From: Daphnia pulex
Taxonomy: Eukaryota > Arthropoda > Branchiopoda > Diplostraca > Daphniidae
Reading direction: 5' to 3'
Assembly: GCF_021134715.1 (NCBI RefSeq)
Contig: NC_060027.1
Coordinates: 4,278,001 to 4,342,000, forward strand
Length of the DNA: 64,000 bases
Positions 6,306 to 51,086 of this stretch are shown here, one piece after another; within the stretch, counting starts at the first letter, position 1; each line of letters starts with the position of its first letter. The notes under the pieces are model-generated. The model worked only from the letters and a program-made list of their open reading frames with translations. It was not told the DNA's origin and searched no databases. The position numbers and the translations under genes were made by a program.

Positions 6306-7990
6306 AATCATGGAAGATGGATTATTTGAAAATGTCCATTAGAAAAAAACTAAGAAACCGCTGGCAAATACCGATCCGGCGAACAGTGCTCCAGTGCTCC
6401 TCTTTCCCGTTGCCAGGCAACAATTTTTTCCACGCTGCTCGTCTACTGAAAAGGAGAATGCGTTGAATAGTAAATTGATGTGCGGATGAAGACGATTTCG
6501 TGCTAGTCTGGGATGCAATAGATTTATCTAACCGAGTAAGTCGTAATTCCATTAATACTTTAGAAAAAAAGGCTATTTATTGTGAGATAAGAGCGATGTT
6601 TGATATTTCCGAAGAACAGATCCAGTTTCAATCTCAAATGGCTCTTTTTCGTAGAATATCCTCGGCCAAATTTTCATTTATAACCTGCTAAAATTGTTTT
6701 ATTTTACCGATTTTGCATTCGCCTTTCGCCCTTTGGTCGCAATTTTTATGATCTCGCAACGGTGCCCCTTCCCCTCCGTAGAGCCTTTCAAAATGGCGAC
6801 GACGTTACAAATTGTGATTGACGTGTCGCCTGTCGCCGTTCTCAACATATTTTTGGATTTTTCGTTTTTTTCCGCGAGGTAATAACTGACGATGGCGCAA
6901 ATTTTTTCCCTTCTGGCCTAGGCTTAAACCAAAAGAATTAGTCAAATTACTATTTGTCGCAATGTGATTGCTGTATTTTAATAGCAAATTTCCATGAACA
7001 AACTATTTGGGGACTGTTTTTAAGGACCTTCAAAAATAACTTCACTATCGAAGTAGCTTTGATATACTTGCATTTTTCCTTTGATTTTCTTAAACACTAC
7101 TGATGTTGTATCAGAAACTCGAAGAGACTTGAAGCTTGGATGTGCACCAACAGTGATTAACGATAGGAATTTGTTATTATCTGTCTATGATTTGTTGTAA
7201 ACATCCTCGTAAAATTTGTTGAGCTGTGCTGTTTTTGTTTTTAGATCAACAGTTTTTTTTACTAAGTATAGTTATTTAATCTCTGTTATGATAGAAGACT
7301 ACTAGAAATTGAAGTACACCATTAACAGTTTTTTTGTTTCTAGATGGAGTGGATTTGGAGAAAGATCTGTATTTACATGTTTTAAGTACTGTTGCAATGT
7401 GTGACAGATGGTTTTTAAGATAGACCATAAATTAATAGCAGCTTCATATATTGTTGTCCTTTCAGTATTTTTGCTGACTCCAAAAAACCAAATTAAACAA
7501 TGGGTATTACGACTTGGATACTCATGATTCTTAAATTGTGATTCTGTGTTTACAGGTAATCCAGCACAAATTCAACATGCTTCAAGTGCAATTATTAAAA
7601 AATCTTTGAATGCTTGCCATTACTTAGATTTGTTAAAAAGGATTTGGATGTGGATTCCTCTGTTTAGTAGAAACATCAACTTTTGTTGTGAGGTATACCA
7701 ACATTTTTTAACAAATAACATTTTGATGAGCTTGACTACTTTTGAAAATGATAATAGGCTTGGTGTATCATCTAGGTATGAAGCTACTGTGTGCTCACTT
7801 TTCTCCGAGTTCAGCAACCTTTACATCAATGATCACAACTGGATATTCAATTGGTACACTAGTTTATTTGCTAATCAATGTTTGTTACATTTCATAAAGG
7901 AAAACTTGTACATTTTTAGTTATTTCAACAGGGCATTATTGCGTAATAATACTTTGAGTGTATTACTAATGTCGACTTGAAGCAGAACCG
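6306..7990. other. No supportable gene (copy A interior)
   Basis: Mostly AT-rich sequence with short open frames. A CpG-containing stretch with ATG at 6793 (MATTLQIVIDVS...) ends at a GTAATA that could be a donor, so a 5' exon is possible. A splice-like acceptor at about 7554 opens a short frame (GNPAQIQHASS). I could not chain these. The copy B equivalent is 25603-27028. Confidence 0.3.
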
Positions 7991-8011
7991 TCAACAAAAT
8001 TTGAACCATCG

Positions 8012-8486
8012 TCATCTCGCTCTTAAAACGTCCTCGCCCAGAGCTCCAGTATCTTGTGGTGTGCAGCTACATCCAGCTGCGACGTTGGTGGAGATGATCT
8101 TTTCAGGTAGACCGGTCGCCGGATTCCTAATGAAAACCTGTAAGGTCGTCATCAGCTGTTTGCAACTGCGTCCTGTCCCGCAATTTTCATTTTTGCAGGT
8201 TCCTGAGCAAACGATTTCGTCGATGGCGACCACAACATTTCCCAGTGGATGATCGTTTTCTACGGTTTTGTTTTCCACTTTGAAAGGACAAACCGTTTGG
8301 GAATGTCGTCCGAGTTCCTGCAGTTCTTCCACGATGGAAACCATGCGATACTGGACCACGTTGTCTTCTTCTTCAGGCTGTCCAAGTTGACCGGAACTAA
8401 TTGCGGCAGTGCTTGGTAGGACTGACCAGGCAATGAGCTGCGGAGACGCAAAAGGTAACTAAAAGCAAGATTGTTTTCATCGTCAT
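8012..8486 (-). CDS. IL-17-like secreted cystine-knot cytokine (copy A)
   Basis: The frame ending at 8012 encodes a small Cys-rich domain. It has CPF, then IVCSGTC, NENC and GRSC, a hydrophobic LQVFIR strand and a terminal AGCSC, which fits the IL-17 pattern (CP...A.C...C......L.V..R.....VGCTC). A TATA box at 8581-8586 and a start MTMKTILLL at 8486 give a signal peptide, but in another frame. Removing the 22-nt segment 8438-8459, which begins GT and ends AG, joins MTMKTILLL to LIAWSVLPSTAA and then to the cytokine frame, giving about 150 aa. The alternative is an upstream exon spliced at an AG near 8460 or 8438. Spaetzle- or neurotrophin-like knots are other options, but the CxC end favours IL-17. 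Confidence 0.5.
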
Positions 8487-8580
8487 GTCAATGATTGAAA
8501 GTTCTGGGACTAATTCAGAGCAGTAACTATGAGCCGAGTTCAAAGTAGTTGTGATGGATTCTATTCTCGAATCGACCGTC

Positions 8581-8586
8581 TTTATA
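8581..8586 (-). promoter_or_regulatory. TATA box of IL-17-like gene, copy A
   Basis: TATAAA on the minus strand, about 95 bp upstream of the first ATG at 8486, with an initiator-like TCCATCAC about 30 bp downstream. The spacing fits an arthropod TATA/Inr promoter. Confidence 0.4.
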
Positions 8587-8934
8587 TGAGAATTAAAGAC
8601 GACAAATGGAAAAGGTTCAAGGATGTTGATCTCCGCATTTATTTAGCACAATTTAGTAATTGCAGGACGTTTCTACAAATTATTCTTTTACGTTCGATGA
8701 TGCCCATCTCAATTTTCCATCAGTTTTATGACGCGCGTTGCGTCATTTTACGTCCCCCAAACATTGTTTGCCGTCTCGACAGGATTTCCAGGAGTTCTGC
8801 ACGTGAAAATTTCCGTTATTATTGTCAACCGCGTAACATTAAACTTTTGGGGTTTCGGAAGGAAGTTAACCATCGAGTGCGCTCGTAGGGGAAAACGCGG
8901 AATCCATGACGGATGTTGGAAAAGTCGTTACCAT

Positions 8935-25595: not shown

Positions 25596-27049
25596 CTTTA
25601 GAAAAAAAGGCTATTTATTGTGAGATAAGAGCGATGTTTGATATTTCCGAAGAACAGATCCAGTTTCAATCTCAAATGGCTCTTTTTCGTAGAATATCCT
25701 CGGCCAAATTTTCATTTATAACCTGCTAAAATTGTTTTATTTTACCGATTTTGCATTCGCCTTTCGCCCTTTGGTCGCAATTTTTATGATCTCGCAACGG
25801 TGCCCCTTCCCCTCCGTAGAGCCTTTCAAAATGGCGACGACGTTACAAATTGTGATTGACGTGTCGCCTGTCGCCGTTCTCAACATATTTTTGGATTTTT
25901 CGTTTTTTTCCGCGAGGTAATAACTGACGATGGCGCAAATTTTTTCCCTTCTGGCCTAGGCTTAAACCAAAAGAATTAGTCAAATTACTATTTGTCGCAA
26001 TGTGATTGCTGTATTTTAATAGCAAATTTCCATGAACAAACTATTTGGGGACTGTTTTTAAGGACCTTCAAAAATAACTTCACTATCGAAGTAGCTTTGA
26101 TATACTTGCATTTTTCCTTTGATTTTCTTAAACACTACTGATGTTGTATCAGAAACTCGAAGAGACTTGAAGCTTGGATGTGCACCAACAGTGATTAACG
26201 ATAGGAATTTGTTATTATCTGTCTATGATTTGTTGTAAACATCCTCGTAAAATTTGTTGAGCTGTGCTGTTTTTGTTTTTAGATCAACAGTTTTTTTTAC
26301 TAAGTATAGTTATTTAATCTCTGTTATGATAGAAGACTACTAGAAATTGAAGTACACCATTAACAGTTTTTTTGTTTCTAGATGGAGTGGATTTGGAGAA
26401 AGATCTGTATTTACATGTTTTAAGTACTGTTGCAATGTGTGACAGATGGTTTTTAAGATAGACCATAAATTAATAGCAGCTTCATATATTGTTGTCCTTT
26501 CAGTATTTTTGCTGACTCCAAAAAACCAAATTAAACAATGGGTATTACGACTTGGATACTCATGATTCTTAAATTGTGATTCTGTGTTTACAGGTAATCC
26601 AGCACAAATTCAACATGCTTCAAGTGCAATTATTAAAAAATCTTTGAATGCTTGCCATTACTTAGATTTGTTAAAAAGGATTTGGATGTGGATTCCTCTG
26701 TTTAGTAGAAACATCAACTTTTGTTGTGAGGTATACCAACATTTTTTAACAAATAACATTTTGATGAGCTTGACTACTTTTGAAAATGATAATAGGCTTG
26801 GTGTATCATCTAGGTATGAAGCTACTGTGTGCTCACTTTTCTCCGAGTTCAGCAACCTTTACATCAATGATCACAACTGGATATTCAATTGGTACACTAG
26901 TTTATTTGCTAATCAATGTTTGTTACATTTCATAAAGGAAAACTTGTACATTTTTAGTTATTTCAACAGGGCATTATTGCGTAATAATACTTTGAGTGTA
27001 TTACTAATGTCGACTTGAAGCAGAACCGTCAACAAAATTTGAACCATCG

Positions 27050-27524
27050 TCATCTCGCTCTTAAAACGTCCTCGCCCAGAGCTCCAGTATCTTGTGGTGT
27101 GCAGCTACATCCAGCTGCGACGTTGGTGGAGATGATCTTTTCAGGTAGACCGGTCGCCGGATTCCTAATGAAAACCTGTAAGGTCGTCATCAGCTGTTTG
27201 CAACTGCGTCCTGTCCCGCAATTTTCATTTTTGCAGGTTCCTGAGCAAACGATTTCGTCGATGGCGACCACAACATTTCCCAGTGGATGATCGTTTTCTA
27301 CGGTTTTGTTTTCCACTTTGAAAGGACAAACCGTTTGGGAATGTCGTCCGAGTTCCTGCAGTTCTTCCACGATGGAAACCATGCGATACTGGACCACGTT
27401 GTCTTCTTCTTCAGGCTGTCCAAGTTGACCGGAACTAATTGCGGCAGTGCTTGGTAGGACTGACCAGGCAATGAGCTGCGGAGACGCAAAAGGTAACTAA
27501 AAGCAAGATTGTTTTCATCGTCAT
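27050..27524 (-). CDS. IL-17-like secreted cystine-knot cytokine (copy B)
   Basis: Copy B of the gene at 8012-8486, with an identical predicted domain from the CPF cysteine to the closing GCSC, the same upstream signal-peptide frame and the same 22-nt GT...AG segment at 27476-27497. The matching TATA box is at 27619-27624. Copy B lacks 108 bp that in copy A lie about 450 bp upstream of the start, so the two paralogues could differ in regulation. Confidence 0.5.
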
Positions 27525-27618
27525 GTCAATGATTGAAAGTTCTGGGACTAATTCAGAGCAGTAACTATGAGCCGAGTTCAAAGTAGTTGTGATGGATTCT
27601 ATTCTCGAATCGACCGTC

Positions 27619-27624
27619 TTTATA
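27619..27624 (-). promoter_or_regulatory. TATA box of IL-17-like gene, copy B
   Basis: Same motif and spacing as in copy A (8581-8586), upstream of the start at 27524. Confidence 0.4.
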
Positions 27625-28316
27625 TGAGAATTAAAGACGACAAATGGAAAAGGTTCAAGGATGTTGATCTCCGCATTTATTTAGCACAATTTAGTAATTG
27701 CAGGACGTTTCTACAAATTATTCTTTTACGTTCGATGATGCCCATCTCAATTTTCCATCAGTTTTATGACGCGCGTTGCGTCATTTTACGTCCCCCAAAC
27801 ATTGTTTGCCGTCTCGACAGGATTTCCAGGAGTTCTGCACGTGAAAATTTCCGTTATTATTGTCAACCGCGTAACATTAAACTTTTGGGGTTTCGGAAGG
27901 AAGTTAACCATCGAGTGCGCTCGTAGGGGAAAACGCGGAATCCATGACGGATGTTGGAAAAGTCGTTACCATTCGGATGATATTGCTACGCGGTAAAATC
28001 GGTTTCCTCATGCAGCGGAATGAACCCATTTCGCCATTCACCCAGTTGATTTCATTCGTTGCTCCACTCTGTTTTTTATTGTACAAGAGTTAAGTAACTG
28101 TGTTTAACCTTGACTGAAAAACGTGTTCTCGGGGAAGAACGCGTTATTGTTTTGACGGAAATAGGAGTAGTTATATTGTGTTCAGTTTTCACGATTGCTA
28201 TTGGAAATCCGTCATTTTGTGTTTCCTGTTTGCGTCGATTCGAAACCCAGCAGCCACTATAGTGTGAGGTATTCGTAGTTCTGAAGAACCTTTATTATAT
28301 CCTTAATCGAAACGGT

Positions 28317-33824: not shown

Positions 33825-35849
33825 ATGACAGATCAAAGTTCAATAGAGTTAACTATTTATGTCCTTACATGGACAGGATCGGTGCTCTACTCCATGTATC
33901 AGTTTCATTTAGCCAGTGACAGTAAAAAATATTAAATTATTTTATTTAAGTTAAAAACCAGTTGCTATTTCAATGATTTCCTTTTTATAAAATAGGATTT
34001 TCCCAATATCTTGCAGAAGATCTGGTCTCTGGCTGGAAATGGATTGGTCGTCAGGTAGATACAGCTGACTTCGAATGGAAAATGTGGACTCCCATTTTTT
34101 TTAAGTGGTTAAAATTTGTCATCCCATACCTAATCATTAGTTTGACAATCAAAAGAAAGTATCCACAATCAGTATCTATAATAAGTACAGCCATGTCTTT
34201 TTGTTGGCTATGGAGCATGCTTGGACTGCAACTAACAGTCTTCATGTTTATCCAACCAGTGCTATTCCTATGGATTTTAAAATTCTTTTCATTAGCTTTT
34301 GTTTGGCTTGTCTGTATAAGCTTTACACTTACATTGCACTCTTCTTTATTCTCAGAGCTCAAAGTAAGTATAGATAATCTTGAATTAAATTATTACAAGT
34401 TATTCATTGAAGTTAAAAACAGACTTTGAATGAAAGACAGATCTATTTGAAGATAATTCCACTCAAGAGTATTTATTCTCGGTAATTCTGGCATGGACTC
34501 ATGCTCGTTCAATCAGTTATTTGGTTGATAGTCGCTCCGATGCTTACAAAAATAGATTTGTGAAGTTTTACCACTATTGCTTCTATCTCCCCTTATTGCC
34601 AACGGGGCCGTTAATGCTTTATCGGGAATTTAAAACATCTGTAAGTACAACATCTGTATTTACCAGTTTCATGATTCTGAAGAATTTTGTATTTCTTTCC
34701 CTTTTTGAAGCTAGAAAATCCTGTGAGTCAGAATTGTAGTTTAATTCACGTAACTAGGAGCATAGCACTCATCGCGCGCTACCTCTTTTGGTGGTTCTTT
34801 CACCAGTTTGCCTTACATTATTTTTATCATAGCGCGTTGCAGTATCACATTGGTATTTTCATTATTTTGACTTTACTAATACAGCATTGCAGTAGCCTCA
34901 CAATTCTTTCGTTACCAGGAATTGTTCGGCACTTAGATATTTGGTCGGCTGCAGGACTCGGTTACACGCTTGGGCAGTTTTTCATGACCAAATATTTGGT
35001 TTTGTACGGATTGCCATCTTCGTTGGCGAAATTGGATCATATTGATTCACCTCCTCCTCCCAAATGTGTAGGACGAATTCATCTCTATTCTCAAATGTGG
35101 CGCGATTTTGATCGAGGACTGTACAATTTCATGCTGCAGTAAAAAACCATAAGCTTAATTATAAATTTCATTTTGTAATTGATTTTACTTCATTTTATTT
35201 CTTAGTTACATCTACATTCCATTCAAAGGGACTTCAGACAAAGTCTGGGCGAAGTTGATGGGAACGGCTTTATGTTTCGGTTTTGTCTGTATATGGCATG
35301 GAGCTTCAACTGCAGTGGTACAACCTTTGAAGTTATCTCTAGATTTTCCAATGGTTTAAATTGTTATTGTTACTTAGGTGATTTGGTGTGTGTCAAATTA
35401 CTTTGGCATTTGTCTGGAAACAATGGCCAAATATTCCTCTACTTGCTGGCCTATTGCAAATTGGAAAGTACGGACTTGAACGGAGCTGATGTTCATGTTA
35501 TGTAATAGAATTAATTTTTGTTGGTATTCTGACAGGCAAACTGGTCCACGCCCAATTGGCTACGTTTCCAAGCAGCTGTAGCTTCACCACTTCTCCTCGT
35601 GTCAGCACTTTCCAATTTTTGTTTCTTTACGGATGCCAAAGTTGGCTACGTCTTGACCCAAAAAGCTGTTTACGAAGGTATTCATAATTGATTGGTGCAT
35701 TGAAATGCATTTATTATCCACGCTTTTTCACAGGCGGAATCTTGAGGCTACTGTGTATTGTAATGGTCATGTATTGCTGCTGTCACGTCTCCATGGCTCT
35801 AAGTCGTCGCAGTAAAAAGAATCTCATTTTTCAAGCACATCGAGACTAA
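33825..35849 (+). CDS. rasp: Hedgehog acyltransferase (Hhat/rasp), MBOAT family
   Basis: Eight exons in phase: 33825-33921, 33996-34363, 34437-34640, 34711-35138, 35206-35317, 35378-35467, 35536-35677 and 35734-35849, giving 518 aa. Many hydrophobic segments fit a polytopic ER membrane enzyme. MBOAT landmarks are SQMWRDFDRGLYNF, then YIYIPFKG, and the catalytic-His motif VCIWHG in exon 5. A further downstream segment has NYFGICLE and the C-terminal CHVSMALSRR. These match Hhat/rasp, which palmitoylates the N-terminus of Hedgehog ligands (family knowledge); a close MBOAT relative such as GUP1/HHATL is less likely because the His is kept. The start is the first ATG with an open phase-compatible exon. 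An AATAAA lies at 35977-35982. Confidence 0.88.
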
Positions 35850-35982: not shown

Positions 35983-37372
35983 TTAAGAAAAACTGCGGAT
36001 GGAAAGCACTATCTAACCCGTTCCGTGATAGTGATAACCAGAAATAAAATTCAAAATTGAATAACTGCCTTAAAATGATATAATCAAACCATAGCAATCA
36101 CAGTTGTTTAACATAATTTTTTATGTGTCTGGACGTTTTAACCTTGACGTGACAAGTGGAGGTATTTTGTCGTCTTAGGCACCAGACACCCGTCGTCCTG
36201 GAAATTTAAATATTTGTCTAGTTTTAGGTATACAAGGACAGGAGCGAGACAAACGAAAGTGATTGATACATCTTTGCTGTATTAACAAGTCGTCTTATCC
36301 GATCGCTCAGACGAATATACAAATGTTTTTAAAAATGATTATAATTTCGTTTCAGGATCGAATGATGTCATGTATATTTGGGAGGGTCTGCTTGCATAAG
36401 TCATACAAGGCATGACGGCAAAGCCAATCTTTTTAGCACTCGGCAATGTTTAATTTTTTTTTTTTCAAAAAAGGATGAAACAAACAAATAAGGGGGAAAA
36501 AAACAAAAATTTAAGGAGTATCAATCTCATGGTAAGTCCGAATCGATCAGGAACAAAAGACAAAAAGGGAAACATTTGATCAGTCAGTTTGTTTCATGAA
36601 GGTATATACGAAGAAGTAAATCGTTTGGTTAAGTTGAAAAGCGATACGGATACAGAAAAACCATAAAAGAGGATATATAACGAGAAACAGAAAAAGGCAG
36701 GTTAAAAAAAAGTAACTTCACTTCGGTTCATGAATGACATGAAAAACAATGAGGTCCAGCTGCCAAAAGCATTGCACAACACGCACACTCTCTTCGAGGG
36801 AGGGGAGAAATGAAACAATTTATCGAGTTTTTGTCGGCGTTAATTCAACAAACAGGAAAAAAAGCTCAACAACATGCACAAATTGATGAGTTATTATCAC
36901 TGATAATGCCGCCACCCCATCTTACAGCACGCGTTATCCACGGTTGGCTGATAATCATTAATAACCACCCCCCTCACGTACGTCTAGCCCCCCAAAAATT
37001 GTTGTTAACAAAGTTATTATTCCATCAAACAAGGTTATGTGTTTTTGTTTGTTTTTTTAAGACAGCCACCAAGGAGCGCAGACTGCGTGAATCTCATTTT
37101 TCAGTCCAAAGGCTCAATTCATTTCAATGAATGACTAGCAATTTAACCAACGTTTTGGAAGCGGCCTCTCATGAAAAAAATTTTGACAAAAAAAAATTGA
37201 CTACTTTTGTTTTAAGTCGAGGTGTTCTTACGCAGAACGGATGGAATCCCATGGACAGAAGAGACTCGATAATAAGAGAGGAGGATAGAAATAAAAGGGG
37301 GAAAAAAAAAATTCAAATGTTTACAAACATCCTCCTCTTTAAAACGTGGTGTTTTAGACGGTTTCATAATCA
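35983..37372. other. Non-coding region between Hhat and Mical 3' ends
   Basis: AT-rich, with many A runs and no chainable exons. It probably contains the 3' UTR of Mical on the minus strand, since that gene's stop is at 37373. No clear repeat or RNA gene is seen. Confidence 0.5.
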
Positions 37373-40300
37373 TCAGACTTGGGATTCCTTTCGTTGGCGA
37401 AGCGTAGCTAGCCGCAAGCCTTTGGCAAGCATTTGAGTTTCCAGGTCTTTGTCCTCTTCACGGTACCTGCAATGGGGAGAGCCAGACAACACAAGAGAAA
37501 GAGGTTGCTTCCGGTTAATTGTGTCTCTGACAAGTCTAAATTATCTTCGACTGCTTATTCCTTCAAAAGCGCTTACAGGCAAATGATAAAAGCACACTTC
37601 ACTATTCTAAATTTAAATTACAAGAAAACAAAATTAACGGACACGATGATTATTTCAAGGCAATATTGAACGGCGATTTTCAAAAGCTGATCGGACTGTT
37701 TCACGGCGTTACGATTACAACTCGATTCTTTGGGGATAGATTTTTCTTTTCTTTTTTGCGCTTGTTTTTATCCAGCAGATAGTTTCTAGTTAGACTAGAT
37801 TGCATGTCATTTTGGCATCCCAATCAAGCAATTCGGATATTAACTTCACTTGGCTCGTCAGACACATTTTGTGGTTGAAAAGCCCAAAATAGAAAACGAT
37901 TCAGACGGGGAGCAAAATAAAGAATAAGAGAATAAGATTTACCGGTAGGATTGACTAAAATTAGAAACGAAAAAAAAAAAAAATTCTCCCGGAGGCCGAC
38001 TTTAAAACATTGTCAGGTAACGTAGAAAAAAGAAATTTGAGCGCAGGTCGATTTGAAAGAATAAGCATAATAACAGAGAAGGTAAAGCTACTACTACTAC
38101 TGGGTAAGGAAAACGAAGAGCGAGAAGAACGGCAGTGAAACGAAACCACAACCACTATTAAAGAATTAAATAAGGAAAATAACAGAGAGCGAGGAGAAAC
38201 AAAAGAATGTGTGAAACAACGGGAGGAGGAGGAAAAAAAAAATAAGAAATGTGCTATCAAAAGAATGAGGGCCAACTGTCGGCCGGAAGTGCCGACAAGA
38301 TGAAAAACGAGAAGACCGTCAGCCAGAAAAGGATGCCAATCTGCCACCACGCCCATCCGCCGGCTGGATCGGATGAGCAAATTGTTCTCTCCAATTCCAT
38401 TTCTGGAACGATTTTCTTTCTTTTCTTCCTGGTTTTTTGAGGTGGCTCTTGTGTCTGTTGCTGCGGGTTTGATTCGAGGTCGTTCCGGCTACTTGACCGA
38501 TCGTCTTTCTTTCCCTTCGTCTTTGGACGCTCGTCCAGATCAGGGTAGACCCCTCGGCGGCCACTTTGCTGCAAATGGTTGTACTCCCACATCCAAACAA
38601 GATCGCGCACCACACCGCGGTTCTCAAATTTAACTCCGAGCGTGCCCCAATCGTTCTCCTCTTCGACGGCCTCGACGCGCTTCCGCGCCTTTCTGTCCAG
38701 CTCGTCAAAGACTTCGACTTTCTCCCGAAGAATTTCAGAGGTTTTCCTTTGTTTCACGTCTGCAGCCATGCTTTGCCGTTGCTCATAAAAGTATTCGTAA
38801 TCAGTGCCGTCGGAGCTCAGAGGCCGTTCAAAATCACTGTTGGCTGCCGAGTCGTCGTCATTGCCGGACCAGAACTCGGTTTCACCTTGACTATTAAGGT
38901 CCGTCAACTCGATCGTCTGGCTTTCAAATTCCATCGAATCCGGGCGCTTCTCTTCGATGGAACTACCTAAACTGGCCACGTCATCGTCAGACAAGTCTTG
39001 GACAAGTTGATCAAATTCTAAAACTTCTTGTTCGTCAATTGCGTTTTCATTCTCGATGGTGGTGGCAACGGCAACGGCAGACCAAAGGTCAATTTCTTCT
39101 TGGCTAACCAATTCGTTCAATTCAACAGTTTTCCCCTCAAATTCGACAGACGGACTCCAAGCAATCTTTGCTGGATGCGCTGGTTGTTCGTGCAATTCCG
39201 CAGGGGGTTCAATGGGATCTAATACAACTAAATCCGATTCGAGAAAATCGCTTATCGAGCCGGTACAGGGAGAAGAAGTGTCTGAATGGTCATTGATGAA
39301 CAGGTGCTCAAATTCCTCCTCGATTTCAAGATCGCTGTCTATTGCTTCCGGCTGGCCGTCCCGAATATCCCAGACTTCGGAATCCGAAGCTTTGGGCGCC
39401 GGAATCTGGTCCGAGTACGCTTGACATTCCCCATCGGATTCATCTGCGATTTCCTGTTCATCCGCAGAGTCAGGCGCGAAAACATCATCCTCTAGACTAC
39501 TTTGAGCCAGATCAATCAGGTTCAAAAAGACTGCCCACCTTTGCCGGTCCTCTTCGAGCATGCTGCGCAGCGAGTCTTTCTGCTCCACGATCTCCAGCAT
39601 CTCGGAAAGAATGGCTCCCTCCTTGTCCACGTCGGCTGGCGATTTCACCGTCTCTGCAAAACGATGGAAATCTTCGCATTAAATTATGAACTCGGTGGTT
39701 TGACAAATAGAACTTTAGAATGAAAATAAGAACGTAGAATCGCCATTATGACCACCACAAAAAAGAAATAGCATTTGAAGGTATACAAGGACGAAATTTG
39801 TTATCAAGATTTTTTGAAAAAGCCACGCCTCCATGCTCTTTCATGCAATCATCACCGGATGCCAGTGTTTGACTCAATTCAATCCTACCTGGCCCCAATG
39901 AGCCATCAGCGATAAAGACGTCGTCTTCCCAGTCTAAAACAAGGATGGGGGTTTAAACAATTGAATTAAGAGCAATGGCGTGAAGCAGGTGTGAGCACAC
40001 ATGTGGTAAGTGGATCACCCTCGATTAGTCGTTCATGAATAAAATTACTGAATAAGTTAGTTCGTTAAAAAAAAAAAAAGCTTTGGAGCTGTTGATTATT
40101 AGTTGAATGTGAGGTCATTTCTAAGTGAAAAACGTGTGTGAAGGGGTCTACGCTATACCATCCAATGACATGCGATCCTTTAGCTCCATCTGAAGCCGGG
40201 CATGTCTATCTTCCAGCTCAAGTTCACGAGCACGAACCATCAGCTCCTGCTCGTACCGACTTAATGCGTTCTTCTCGTGGACTAGCTGGAACCACTCCTG

Positions 40301-43300: not shown

Positions 43301-46300
43301 TCCACGACGACACTGGGCAAAGCAACATACTGGTTGAGCGCTTCGTACGGTGGTTCGGATGAATCCGCTTCAGAATCCGTGTCGAAATCTGAAGTCGCGT
43401 CCCGATTAGATTCCTCCTTGGATTCTTCTGATTCGGTGTCACTGCTAGTGACTTCACTGGCGATGTTTCCATTTGTTTGGGCGGAGCCGCTGTCGCTCGG
43501 CGTGACTGGTACAACTGCAGAGGATTCGATTGTCACAGCAATCGCTTCAGCTGGGGGTTCACTGTTGGTCGGAGTTGGAGGTTCCTTTTCAAAACACTCC
43601 AAATCCTCTGGCGGCATTTCTTTTGGAATACTGAGAACCGGTTGAGCAGGTTCGTTAGCTTTTTCGACGGGTAAAACGTTTGGCACTTGACGTGGCCCTG
43701 GTTGGAAAATGTTGGCCGTGTTCTGTAAGAACACCTGTTAAAACGACAAGAAATGTTTAATCAAAGTCAAATCACCGCGTTAATAAAATATTTTCGAATT
43801 CCAACCTGCATGGGAACGCTGGGCTGAGGGGCCGGATTAAGTTTTTTCTGGGCCTCGGAAATGGTGTCCACAAAGCTCCTCAGCTTGCTATCGAGATTGG
43901 TGGTCGAAGCAGATTTTTGTGCCAGCGAGCCTGTAGAGCCTCCATAATCCATCATGTACTTTTTCTTGAGTTCCAGCGAGTTCTTAGAGGCCACCATATC
44001 GGTAGAAGGCGACCTTTCCAGCTCTTCGTGGCGACGCAAATAGGCCAAGACTCCCGAACGGCCAGGTGCGGTCGCCGAATCAGCATTTCTGCTATCTTCA
44101 TGGGATAGCGTCCGCTGGAGTGGCCGAGCATTTTCAAGTGATATGTACTGATCAACGTAGATGGGTTTGGGATCTCCCTTCGTGGATCTGGTGGGTGGCA
44201 TCTGTTCCAATGGTTCTGCTTCAACTTCCGCCACCGGATGACTGTCCAATCCATTACCGTTGGCCAGCTGGTCAGTGCTCTTTTTCAACTGCTCAGCCTC
44301 TGATTCGTTGACAACGATAGTAGGGATTCCTTGAAGTCCTAAACGAACGTCGGCATTGCTGTTTTGATCAAATTCAGAATCAGTTTCAATTTCCGTAGCA
44401 GAATCTCGGCCGTCTTCTTCATCTTCCTCATCTTCTTCGTCTTCATCATCTTCGTCTTCCTCCTCTTCGCCATTCTCATATTCGCTCTCCTCTTCATAAT
44501 CTCCTTCATCGTCCTCCTCTTCGTCTTCCAATTCCAACTCCTCATCGGAACCCATCTGTAAAACCAAACAAATCAATTATATAATAACTGATTTAAACAG
44601 TGATTCAACCTCGAAGGTTTATACCTCTGTATCGGAACTGGTTGCTTCTTCACTGGATTTCTTGTGGATGGGTTCGGATGCAAGCGGGAAGGCCGGGACA
44701 TCAATTCGGACGTTGTTTTCTTCTTCGTCTAAACTCAACCAATTGTCAATATTCATTCAGATGCATGTAACTTGTAAATCGAAACGTACTTTCAGGAATG
44801 CTTTCGTGAAGCGGTTCTTGACATTCCTGTTGATTGCGATCGGACGCTTCGGTCGAATAGCGTTTCTTCCACGATTCGGCAAGTCTTCGAGTTTCGTCTG
44901 CAGTCAAAGGCCTGTCGAGTTCCATCAGATTTTCGTTGGAAACTTCTTCTCCACCTTCCTCGTCGTCTTCGTCATCGTCGGAACTAGAAACAGGATCACT
45001 CAGATTTATAACCACAAACAAAATTTAATGGAGTACAAGATGGAATGTACCTTGAATCGTCCAAAGATGAGGCTTCATCTTCCGTGCCAGAATGGACGGA
45101 ATTGCCGAAATTGTGGTCAGTCCATTCGTCTTCGTCGATTTCGCTCAGTTGATCTTCTTTGGCCGTCTCGTCGGCGATGGAATTTTCAAATTCCACTCTT
45201 TCCGGAGTGCCATCTCGCCGGAAGTCGAGATCGGCAGCCTGGACAGCAGCCTGGACTAGAGGGCTCTTGATCGGCTCAAACACGATTGGCTTATCCGCAC
45301 TACTAAAAAATTTAATTTTTAAAATATTACTACGGATCCTATCAAATAAATAAGACGGAAATTTAGTTACATGTTGAGAAGTTGATTGTTTGGTTGGGCA
45401 GCAACGGGCTGGGCAATTCTTCGTTCAATTTGGCCGTCAACGCAAGTTTCGCCGTTACGGCCCGTCAGAATTTTGTTGCGCATGTAGTACAACATGGACA
45501 CGTGCGGCATACAGAAAAAGACGCCACCGAGGAGGTCGTCGCGGACGAAAGCGTAGCCTCCGAGTCGCAACGTCGAAGCACAGTACTCGCAACGGAAGCA
45601 GCCGCGATGGAAGAATCGACCTTCGGCGCTCATGCGTTCCATCAGGTAGACGCGTTTGCTGCAAAAATGGCACGTCTCCGAGCCTCCTTGCTGAGGAAGA
45701 TTGAGCACCGGCTTGGGTCTGAAAGATTCCGCCTGATCATTCACACTGGACACTTCCGGCACCTTTTTGGACAGCTGCTGAGCCATGGCGGAAACCTTAT
45801 TGCTGCCTCGATGGCCCGTATCCAGCACACTGCCTTCTTTGAGCTTCCTCTCCAGCTGCTTCATGCCGCGTTCCAGGTTGACGTACTTTTCGTTGATGGC
45901 TTCTGCGGGTAAACCGTGAATCCGGCGATTGATCGCTTCGAACTAAATTTAAAAAAAAAGGAAAAAGACAAATATGACGACCAGATGTCGCAAAATTTAC
46001 AACAAAATCAGGGATACCTTATCAGTGAACGCGTCCCTGTTCCATTTGGGAACTTTGTTATCATGCATGTGCGGATCTTTCACCCCACCAGGTGTCTGGT
46101 TCTCTTCAATCTTCTTCTCCAAAGCAGAAAGTTGCCAGTCGCTCCTATCCAATTTTCCTACGAAATAAATCATGAAATAAGTTAAGAAAATGGCAATTCA
46201 TCTTCGAGCTCGAGGACAACAAGATAAGAAAAAACTAAAAACAAACAACAAGTCATTTTTGTGTTACCTATGGCTCGGATTAGATCTTTGGGTTTCTTGT

Positions 46301-49300
46301 CAGTTGGGCGATTGCCTCTCAGCTTGGCTTCCAAATCACGGACTTTATTACTCAGCGATTCGCTACCTTCTGCACCGCTACCACGGCCGGGCTTGGCATT
46401 GCGGTCCTGTAAAACAGAGAAACCAGTGAAAAATTAGAGAGACAAGACAATCGATCAAACGGAAACTCGGCGACGTCAAACTTTGGCGAACATTTTCCAG
46501 CGCAAAACAAATGAACGTACACAAGACACAAAAAAGAAAACACCGTGCGCCACTCTTTCGAGTTAGTATTCAAACTAGGCATGCTCGCCATGGGGGGTAA
46601 GGGAGTTAGATATTTTCAATCCGGCAGATTGAATATGGATGAGTTAGATGCATGTCTAGAAATTCGGGGCTAGCTATAGTTGGTGTTCCCGACAACAATA
46701 CAACAACTGCCAATCACGTGGAGCCGGAGGGGGTTTGTGTGTTACGAAAGTGGGAGAAAAAGGATTGTACAGCAAACGCGTCGACTGCTGGCTTGCTTCA
46801 ACTTGTGCGTCATGCTTTCTATTCAAAAAAAATGAAAAGGTGGATTGCATGTTGTGGATGCATAAAGGCACAGATATTGCCTTGGAGGCTTACGGTGGGG
46901 TTGAAACCGGACAACATCTTCTCCAGTCGGCACCTCTTATCCTCGAAATCTGACTCGAGACGGTAAATGAATAGGGAAATATCCTGGAGGTCGCGATCAG
47001 CCTTCATCTGTCTTTCCGTGGCCTTGCTGAATCCGCCCGGCTCGTCGTCCGGATCGCCACCGGCTTGCAACATCTGCATACTTCTATCGAATCGGAGGCG
47101 CAGGAAAGCTGCCGCCCGTTGCTTTCGGTCCAACCGGTTTGCGGCTATCTCTTGCTGGACTTGACCGCGTTCCTGAACCCCCAACGCACGTTTAACAACA
47201 TGTGAGGAGGATACAATTTTCGCACCAAATTTGGGCACGCAGCCAAACCGGGAAAAAAAATATGAGCTCGCAGGCCCGTTTGGGATTTTGTTTGTTGGAT
47301 GTACTACCATTGTTCGGTTCACTGTGTATATAATATAACCAGAATGGGAAAGAAACAAAAGCCCGCCAGTGGGGGGCGAGTATCAGCACTTACCGCGGTG
47401 TTGTGTAAGGAACGGTCGGTACTGCGACGCTTGCGGGCTTTGCGCAAAGACATGTCGGCCTTGTTGCGGTCACCTCCGGTCCGGTTGAGTGTGCTGCTGG
47501 GCGCCTCTGCCGTCGCTACGCGTTCCAACGTTTTCCGCTTGCTGGACGTCGACGTTCGCGTTGTGACTTTGCTCTGAGCTGCGGCGCGTTGGTATTGGCC
47601 GGCAGAACAAATGGCAGTTGGCCGTTTCAGAGAAGCTGCTCCCAAAATGTCCTCCTCAGACTCGGTCAGTTCCTGCGAAAAGAAAAAGTTGTTGATGTTG
47701 TTGCGTGATTCATAGCAAAAACTACTGACCCTTTTAGGTTGTTTGACGCAAGGAATTTCCCCACGGAACAATTCGTGAACTTGTGTCAGATAGGACAGCA
47801 TGGACAGTTTGTCAGGGACGGCCAACTGAGCCATTTCGTAACCGGTGGTCACCTAAGAAAAGAGAAATCGAGTGCGTTAATGCCGATTCCCGGTCAATAG
47901 TTCGATTAAGGGTATTTACAGGAAGAACGCCAAGTTCTTCAAGGATGTCGAAAGCCAGTTGGTTATTAACGGCCACATTTGCTGGATCAAGTGAGGCGAA
48001 ATCCAGTAAATCGGGGCGATATCGATGGATAATAGCACAGAGGGCAAGGCCGTCTTGAAATGAATTCGTCATATCCGTGATGGTGATATCGTAGAGTGCA
48101 ATCTGCTTCTTGAGCCACACCAATAACGTATCTGGGTGAATGAAAGAGTCGGCTGCAAAAACAAACAAATCAAAAATGAACAACAATGTCTAACCCCAAC
48201 AGCGTTAATTCACCCTTTTTAATCTTACGTCGTTTAGTTCTTTTCCGAGTTCCCTCCTCGACGGGAGCTTTGACAGGTCTGGCCAGCTCGGCCAAGTTAT
48301 CCGTGTCGTAGAGTGATTTGACCTGGAAATCGAGACAGGTTCGTATGTTGAGATTGGGGTAGCGTGTTTGAGGCTCGACGGTGTAGGCACTGTAATCTTT
48401 GTTCAGGTTCTCGGGCGTTGTCTGAGCCAGCAGGCGGTAAATGGACTCTCGCTCGGCGAGGACCTCCAGCGGAGTCATCCGACCACTCGACCAAGAGTGG
48501 ATGGCCCAGCAGGCGTCGAAAGAGCTCAGCCAGCCACGCGCACATCCCGAGCCTGTCGGCCAGAACGGCTCCAGTAAACTGTCACCCACCAGGCACATGA
48601 GCATTTTGTGGCCGTGTCTTTCTAGCACCCTTGAAGCGTTCTCGGCCGCAAACATGGAAGTGAAGTCAAACATGGCCACATCCGGCTGGCCGTAATGATT
48701 GACGGCAAAGTCCAAGTGTGGCAGCTGATAATTGGTGGAGAAATCGGCCGCTTGACGAGCATAGTCCATCAGGGCCTCTTTATTAACATTCTCGATCGAC
48801 AATAGCTTCACCGTGTCCGGGAAGTCCTAATAGATAACAAGTATAGACGTCAATGATTTTTCAAGGATGGAATTCCAAGATTGGAATAGCTGCCAAATGT
48901 TATATATACCTGAATAATGACCCCTTTGCTGAGCAGGGACTGCTTTTTGGCCGTCATGACAAAGTAATGGGTTTCGTCTTTGTAGTAGACGATGTTTTCC
49001 AGGTCGATGCCAGTGACGGCGTTGAGTTCTTTGAAGAACTTTTGATTGAAAATGAAAGCCACGCCCGAAATTTCTTCGACGCGTGCCTCGGCTTCCGATT
49101 TCTTGTTAACCAAATTGGCCGTAATGGCAATGGCCAGTCGTCCACGGAATTCCTTGCGTTTGAACCCTGAAAGAAATTTTTAAAAATTCGTTCGTCAGAC
49201 ATATGAAATTTAGGACAAGGCTAAGTGTTTCCAATAATACCGTCCAATGTGTTTCTCTTGCCATCAGCACCAATGAGCACGTCAAATTCATATTGCGAGA

Positions 49301-51086
49301 CTGGATGATCCGCCGGGCTAATTTTAGCCTTCCAACCTATTTCTGTTGACGAAACAAAACACACACAAACATAAAAATCCAGACTGACGTCTCATAACAT
49401 TTCTGAGGCGCAAAAAGCTGCTGCTGCTGCTGCTACTTACTGATCGACTGATCTTCTGGCGGCTCAGCGAGTCCTTCAAACGTCACGTTCTCGTGAATTT
49501 CAACTCCCAGAAGTAGAGCGACTTTAAGTAGAATGCACTGCAGCTGGCGGATACCTAAATAATGGATTTATCACACAAAAAAAAAGAAGGGGGGACTAGT
49601 GATGACGCAATGGCGAAAAAACTAGGAACAAGTCCAATTTAATTACTGATGTGATCGATAGATCCGGCGCAGAACTTGCCAAAAAACTTCTTAGCACCGA
49701 GCGCCCTCAGATCGTGAATAACGAACGGCCAGAGATGCAGGACGTTGTTGCGAGAGAACCGGTCTCTTTTTTCCACCACAACAACTTTGGCGCCCAGCAG
49801 CTGGGCTTCTATAGCCGTCCGTAAACCGCACGGTCCGCCACCGATGATCAGCACCTACACAAGGAAGAAAAAAAATGACATCAGTCGTCGTCCGCGTGAC
49901 TCATCCCCCCGAATCGTGATGAAAGACATGAGCCAGCAGGCAACAACATCTTGATGTAAACAAGGCCGCCGCCGCCGTCCAGTCACCTCTTATCAGACTG
50001 GCCTGGTTGCGAAAAATAGCCCAGGCGATTGATTCTGGCAAAGGTTACAAACTACACAACTGCAATTCCATGTGTGTGTGTGTGTGTGTGTAAAAACAGA
50101 AAATCTCGCGCTGGGGTTACGCCGTTTCAAAGCAGCGAAAAGCCTCCCAACTGTTGAAGACACTCGGGGGAGTCCCGACAAAAAAACCAAAGTGGAACGG
50201 AAAGAGGCTGCCTGGCCAAACAACGAAAATAGATCCTTGTTTTTTAAGATCGAGGGGTGCATACGCACACGCATGTAAAATAAAATAAAAATCCTGGCTC
50301 GACTTGAAAGAAAAAAGGGAATCTGTTTTTTACTTTCCCGAAAGGGGAAATTATTCATCCGAGAGAATCGCCCTTGAAGATTAACTTTTTTAAGTCGTTT
50401 TTTTCTTTGGTACGTGACGGAATTATGAGAGCACAATGAACGTCTGTTGAGACGGACGAGATATCCAAAGACACTCGCTCCATATAGGGAACCTCCTTGG
50501 AGGACATGTCGCTGAGCTGATAAGGAGCGCTCCAAATGGCACGCCACCAAAAACCCGATATTATACAAAAGGAGAAAAACCGTCTTTTATATTATTATTA
50601 TTTTTCAAATCGTGTTTACCCGTGTGTTTGAACAAGGCCTTCCTCGATTGTAGCACCGATGAGCTGCCCGTTTGTCGAATTTACTCCATAGCGCCTGGGC
50701 TTTCCACGAGCGTAACTTTGCCTGTCGGGGTGAAATGAATCAAAGAAAAAATAATAAACAACAAACTATTAAAAAAGAGTCAACACTCCATCATCGGTGA
50801 CACGACGACGACGACCAAAAGAAGCAAATGGACTTTCTTGTCCAAATGGGAATTTAAAAAGCGTCACCGAAACTATGTTATGATAACTGACCTTGAGTTT
50901 TGGATAGAAAAGAGGGAAGTAAGTGGGTTTTAGCCGGAGCAAATCACACAGCTGCCGGTACAGGCTCAGAATCGATTTGAACGTGACAGCGTTGCAGAAC
51001 TTGTCGAAGACATCCGAGGCCAGTGCCGAATCAGGAGAGGTCACTCTAGCGACACCACCACCACCACCGCTGCTGCTGGCGTACAT
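37373..51086 (-). CDS. Mical: F-actin monooxygenase MICAL (FAD, CH, LIM and bMERB domains)
   Basis: Thirty exons from ATG 51086 to stop 37373 chain in phase to 2633 aa. The FAD monooxygenase has [13 protein letters not shown] (exon 49647-49854), LIGADGKRN (49241-49342) and [12 protein letters not shown] (48214-48826). The CH domain is on exon 47920-48152 ([14 protein letters not shown] ... [19 protein letters not shown]). The LIM domain is on exon 45371-45942 ([13 protein letters not shown] ... [10 protein letters not shown] ... FFCMPH). Long acidic linkers follow (43806-44983). The C-terminal bMERB coiled coil spans 40410-40522, 40159-40332, 39539-39653 and the last exon 37373-37466 ([17 protein letters not shown]). 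Mical oxidises actin methionines and acts downstream of plexin; bMERB binds Rab GTPases (family knowledge). An alternative 3' end is listed separately. Confidence 0.95.
38257..39538 (-). CDS. Mical: Alternative Mical 3' extension with C-terminal membrane anchor
   Basis: The canonical splice donor after codon EEDRQR (GTGGGC at 39533-39538) can be ignored, and the frame stays open for 427 more codons to a stop at 38257. This gives a 3029-aa form. The extension is acidic. It has two similar units ([18 protein letters not shown] near 39140 and [18 protein letters not shown] near 38920), then a charged segment ([18 protein letters not shown]), a basic cluster (KTRKKRKK) and a final hydrophobic helix ([20 protein letters not shown]) 10 residues from the end. 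Basic-then-hydrophobic at the extreme C-terminus is typical of tail anchors. The form lacks the last part of the bMERB helix encoded at 37373-37466. Length, coding composition and internal repeat argue against a chance frame. Use in vivo is an inference. Confidence 0.75.
39889..39933 (-). other. Mical: Mical 45-nt microexon in the bMERB linker
   Basis: A 45-nt exon, phase 1 at both ends, bounded by AG and GT, encodes [15 protein letters not shown]. It lies between the exon ending RMSLD and the one starting [13 protein letters not shown]. Skipping it leaves the frame intact, so it can be a cassette. Other MICAL bMERB domains as I recall them have no such acidic insert here. Confidence 0.7.
50071..50092 (+). 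repeat. (TG)n microsatellite in Mical intron
   Basis: An uninterrupted TG run of 22 bp in the intron between the exons at 50620-50721 and 49647-49854. Confidence 0.95.

Follow-up and report, generated by a model that had tools for sequence, protein, structure and literature searches.

A predicted tail-anchored alternative C-terminus of MICAL in Daphnia pulex

The activity of MICAL proteins, enzymes that take actin filaments apart, is thought to be set by partners such as Rabs and plexin, which relieve an autoinhibition exerted via the bMERB (coiled-coil) domain. In the parts of the sources available to us, MICALs are described as cytosolic (PMC3645671) and as interacting with the cytoplasmic part of plexin and with active Rabs (PMC9982024); those parts do not mention a built-in membrane anchor for the known MICALs, whereas the extended MICAL form described here ends in a predicted transmembrane helix. 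Human MICAL1 is held inactive by its coiled-coil (bMERB) domain; according to a proposal, the third helix of this domain straightens on Rab10 binding and the enzyme is released (PMC11557892). The closest precedent for a membrane-attached relative is EHBP1/EHBP1L1, bMERB proteins with a prenylated C-terminal CaaX box, which their bMERB constructs need to reach endosome-like structures (PMC5026484). The succession of a bMERB domain and a C-terminal membrane anchor is common to these proteins and to the extended MICAL, but in EHBP1/EHBP1L1 the lipid anchor comes straight after the bMERB domain and there is no monooxygenase, whereas here a 426-residue tail and a predicted transmembrane helix follow. 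Neither MICAL form has a CaaX end: the extended form ends in PSFF and the canonical form in ESQV.

Tail-anchored proteins, like the extended MICAL, have a single predicted transmembrane helix in their last 35 residues and a short lumenal end; an enzyme of the size of MICAL on a tail anchor seems unusual. In KASH proteins, too, a C-terminal transmembrane helix follows a large cytosolic part linked to actin; their lumenal segment of some 20-30 residues closes with PPPX. The end of the extended MICAL differs: it is nine residues long, PADSWPSFF, and lacks the SUN-binding PPPX, so that it is not a KASH-type end. The first-pass annotation of this DNA knew of no described MICAL with a C-terminal membrane anchor, and we found no MICAL with a transmembrane helix among the matches listed from the open-licence literature (mostly titles and abstract openings); a MICAL match in PMC6862087 proved to be an author's name. 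An automatic annotation of the extended form may exist.

The window, i.e., the whole stretch of Daphnia pulex DNA analysed (64,000 nucleotides of contig NC_060027.1), contains on its minus strand, from approximately 51 to 37 kb, a MICAL gene with the domain order monooxygenase, CH, LIM, bMERB, which is also that of human MICAL1 and MICAL3 and of Drosophila Mical. The coordinates are given in Table 1. The FAD monooxygenase domain is present: there is a Pfam match to Rossman_Mical as well as a GGGPCG sequence, which we take to be the nucleotide-binding motif of the MICAL monooxygenase.

Table 1. Features of the MICAL gene and of its two alternative C-termini (window coordinates).
Feature	Coordinates	Strand	Basis
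MICAL flavin monooxygenase ORF	49639..49854	-	GGGPCG, presumed nucleotide-binding motif
Rossman_Mical ORF	48826-48170	-	Pfam Rossman_Mical, E 1.9e-17
Calponin homology ORF	47812..48189	-	Pfam CH, E 8.3e-14
LIM domain ORF	45367..45942	-	Pfam LIM, E 4.3e-07
Exon part common to both forms, third bMERB helix	39539..39653	-	Pfam PF12130; MICAL3 5szg alignment
Donor GTGGGC, context AAG/GTGGGC (/, exon end)	39533..39538	-	Score 4.9, generic donor matrix; non-use would give the extended form
C-terminal extension, 426 codons	38260..39537	-	Open in the bMERB frame; coding score; internal repeat
Repeat copy 1, 25 residues	39076..39150	-	Protein self-comparison, shuffles
Repeat copy 2, 25 residues	38863..38937	-	Protein self-comparison, shuffles
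Predicted transmembrane helix, 23 residues, then PADSWPSFF	38287..38355	-	Hydrophobicity; AlphaFold helix
TGA stop, extended form	38257..38259	-	Sequence
Canonical last coding exon, 30 residues and stop	37373..37466	-	REEDKDLE aligned to the human MICAL3 bMERB end

The canonical form is a MICAL with a C-terminal bMERB domain, the end of which matches MICAL3. The exon starting at 39653 covers positions 91-126 of the 134 in the Pfam bMERB profile (PF12130; exon residues 3-38, 24.8 bits against a cut-off of 24.6), and a PDB sequence search with the exon protein returned a single match, MICAL3, over the bMERB part only (E 0.0089). The joined canonical exons, minus an optional 45-base exon, align to the human MICAL3 bMERB (5szg) without gaps (E 5.7e-31). 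The octapeptide REEDKDLE of the last exon is identical to human MICAL3; because of this identity and of the in-phase join of 39538 to 37466, we take the canonical end as real. Its ESQV terminus (37373-37384, minus strand), which fits a class I PDZ-ligand pattern, would be lost in the extended form. The optional exon (39889-39933, minus strand; 15 residues) is situated between bMERB helices 2 and 3: the phase is kept with or without it, and human MICAL3 aligns with no insert at this place. It is possibly a cassette exon by which Rab binding is tuned.

The first-pass annotation had the exon starting at 39653 either spliced at GTGGGC (39533-39538) to 37466 or read straight through for 427 open codons. 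The donor, as well as the coordinates, frame and stop of the read-through, proved correct, the 427 codons being 426 residues and the stop codon. The stop-to-stop ORF (39678-38257) amounts to 473 aa, with the 426 residues and the stop beyond the donor. Other MICAL ORFs extend 0 to 32 codons beyond their donor in the six, out of eight compared, that have a donor in our crude gene model (the other two have no such donor). The extended form keeps the same bMERB profile positions, 91-126 of 134, after which a predicted helix (residues 5-57) continues into the tail. The extension consists of an acidic linker (codons 1 to ~290), predicted helical segments, the basic KTRKKRKK and a terminal hydrophobic helix. 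The difference of 396 aa between the two forms was upheld; the totals given earlier (2633 and 3029 aa) were not reproduced, as our crude exon chain drops exons.

In its open length, its codon score and an in-frame repeat, the extension behaves like coding sequence. At its composition, the probability of 426 open codons is ~9e-8, and among 1000 first-order Markov simulations matched in composition, the longest ORF was 357, none reaching 426 codons. The GC content of the extension, 50%, exceeds that of the remaining intron (37%) and that of 200 kb from this contig (39.5%). The in-frame codon score is 0.148 per codon, above the -0.047 to 0.086 of the five alternative frames, and lies within the range of six other MICAL ORFs (0.066 to 0.168); the 47 training ORFs (at least 150 aa, from 200 kb), which probably include false ORFs, have a mean score of 0.03, and background ORFs of 60-149 aa score up to 0.24. 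Synonymous codon choice over the 426 codons fits coding in all four settings (P <= 0.0105): P was 0.0105 and 0.0065 with training on the long ORFs, while training on MICAL (seven whole stop-to-stop ORFs, hence including some intron codons) gave 0/2000 and P 0.0005. For the first 306 codons, this signal is weak (P 0.057, long-ORF training).

The internal repeat is the best coding evidence for the extension, but by itself it is no warrant for the terminal helix. Extension residues 130-154 and 201-225 align with a BLOSUM62 score of 70, which was equalled in 3 of 9000 shuffles of the first 385 extension residues, i.e., with the terminal helix left out (three designs of 3000 each: 2, 1 and 0). The maximum in a separate set of 200 shuffles was 63, and the other five frames, with stops removed, gave best scores of 30 to 35. 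The two copies share 18/25, 20/25 and 8/25 bases at codon positions 1, 2 and 3, the last value being near chance and such as a chance protein match would give likewise. Their pS of 0.91 and pN of 0.26 make a contrast that on its own is biased, the pair having been chosen by protein similarity. The weight of the repeat thus rests on the shuffle and other-frame controls, not on pS/pN. The shuffles suggest a true duplication; if it is one, the protein was kept with its silent sites random, and the repeat was therefore translated in this frame.

Concerning the C-terminus itself, our hydrophobicity check bore out the terminal hydrophobic helix (20 residues) of the first-pass annotation; KTRKKRKK, placed directly before the helix there, lies ~20 residues upstream. 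Extension residues 395-417 form one strongly hydrophobic stretch, encoded by a pyrimidine-rich sequence, with a 17-residue sum of -1.69 on the Hessa scale, against +11.3 for the best 19-residue segment away from the tail. In a single-sequence AlphaFold model of the exon protein, 342 of 464 residues have a pLDDT below 50 (mean 48), and confidence is highest in a helix at residues 429-454 (extension 391-416), with block means of 82-92 across residues 431-460. The model also prolongs the third bMERB helix by 19 extension residues, up to residue 57; here, the block means are 66 and then 51. Foldseek found nothing better than E 5.8 for the model, and no Rfam match occurs at 37000-40000. Candidate motifs in the tail were set aside: Atg8-binding LIR motifs in the first 390 residues (6 loose and 2 strict, versus shuffle means of 2.8 and 0.6) are not significantly enriched (P 0.053 and 0.11, respectively; 5000 shuffles), KKRK is too common to weigh as a nuclear import signal, and the single FFAT-like match fits the motif poorly.

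The length of the helix, the tryptophans on either side of it, the basic stretch on its cytosolic side and the short terminus devoid of basic residues are what one expects of a tail anchor. This short, non-basic terminus argues against mitochondria and for ER-derived membranes. Alternatively, the extension could be coding with a hydrophobic end that serves as a degradation signal or as a soluble interaction helix, the form being short-lived or cytosolic. We consider this unlikely, given the fit of the helix and its flanks to a tail anchor and the confidence of the helix in the AlphaFold model. In its favour, the coding signal of the extension is weakest in its last part: in the last two of seven 60-codon blocks, another of the six frames scores higher than the claimed one (0.15 versus 0.11; 0.08 versus 0.05), and the evidence from synonymous choice is weak for the final 60 codons (P between 0.0045 and 0.125 across the four settings). 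Moreover, equally hydrophobic tails arise in 2.4% of Markov simulations with the composition of the last 99 bases, as compared to 0.35% with that of the last 150 and 0/2000 with that of the last 300.

As for donor choice, a generic matrix does not rate the donor at 39538 as weak, which counts against the read-through form: at 4.9, it falls within the 0.3 to 6.0 spanned by the donors that the crude gene model chose, a model that admitted positive donor scores only. The model favours the read-through end (517.2 versus 505.3), but it misses ORF 49854-49639 and the exon of the second bMERB helix and reaches the canonical end via another donor, and we relied on it for donor positions and scores only. 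From the stop of the extended form to the last canonical exon, a scan found no AATAAA and, among the variants scanned, only GATAAA at 37772; because of the missing AATAAA, a separate 3' end of the extended form is not evident. Beyond the canonical stop on the same strand, the first AATAAA is at 35715, and an ATTAAA is at 36454. Early polyadenylation and a fully retained 2 kb intron with a common 3' end are equally possible.

A search of the assembly (133.2 Mb, 13 contigs; five candidates scored) found no second copy of the extension. One match (C5, E 0.26) was taken as chance; it concerns a lysine-rich ORF that by eye presumably resembles Sec62. No relative was confirmed in viral contigs (1 pattern match) or prokaryote contigs (68 pattern matches), which is as expected and says nothing on conservation. 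Elsewhere in the window, ~2.3 kb are repeated without a mismatch at 6591-8899 and 25629-27937, 19,038 bases apart; this repeat carries a cysteine-rich exon that, read by eye, resembles a cystine-knot ligand, and it is either a very recent duplication or an assembly artefact.

The missing AATAAA and the lack of a relative beyond this gene (in the assembly, and in contig scans covering viruses and prokaryotes only) would suit an extension that is a decaying former coding exon or a chance-open intron, with retained-intron transcripts as mere noise. Its open length, codon usage and in-frame repeat speak against such an origin, which we judge improbable. It is highly improbable that the extension is a small membrane protein in its own right, separate from MICAL and under a promoter of its own: it is readable alone, but its frame is continuous with that of the bMERB helix across the donor, which would be needless for a separate gene.

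The sequence gives good support to the claim that a complete MICAL has an alternative coding C-terminus with a predicted transmembrane helix at its end: the frame, the domains, the coding character and the hydrophobic helix of the extended form are observed. We think it probable that this is a tail-anchored alternative C-terminus made by not using the donor at 39538; the transcript, its product's membrane insertion, the organelle and the function are our inference. With the donor used, the protein would end like other MICALs; with the donor skipped, the third bMERB helix would run into the 426-residue tail, i.e., ~290 mostly acidic residues, a few predicted helices, the basic stretch and, at the C-terminus, a single transmembrane helix whose lumenal end has nine residues. 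The extended form would be a tail-anchored protein with its enzyme in the cytosol, and the tail would keep the F-actin oxidase at a membrane; the ER, the nuclear envelope and ER-fed compartments are the likeliest candidates. The long linker would let the membrane-held enzyme reach nearby filaments.

The anchor would fix MICAL on the membrane, where Rabs may still switch it on. There is, in our estimation, an even chance that this is an integral tail-anchored MICAL splice form that puts an F-actin oxidase in an organelle surface, clearing actin there and located without Rab recruitment; the ER, the nuclear envelope and the endosome are the candidate organelles. If so, the tail-anchored form would separate the location of the enzyme from its switch and would provide a natural test of MICAL action on a single membrane. 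If expressed, the extended form would be a new end for the known MICAL family.
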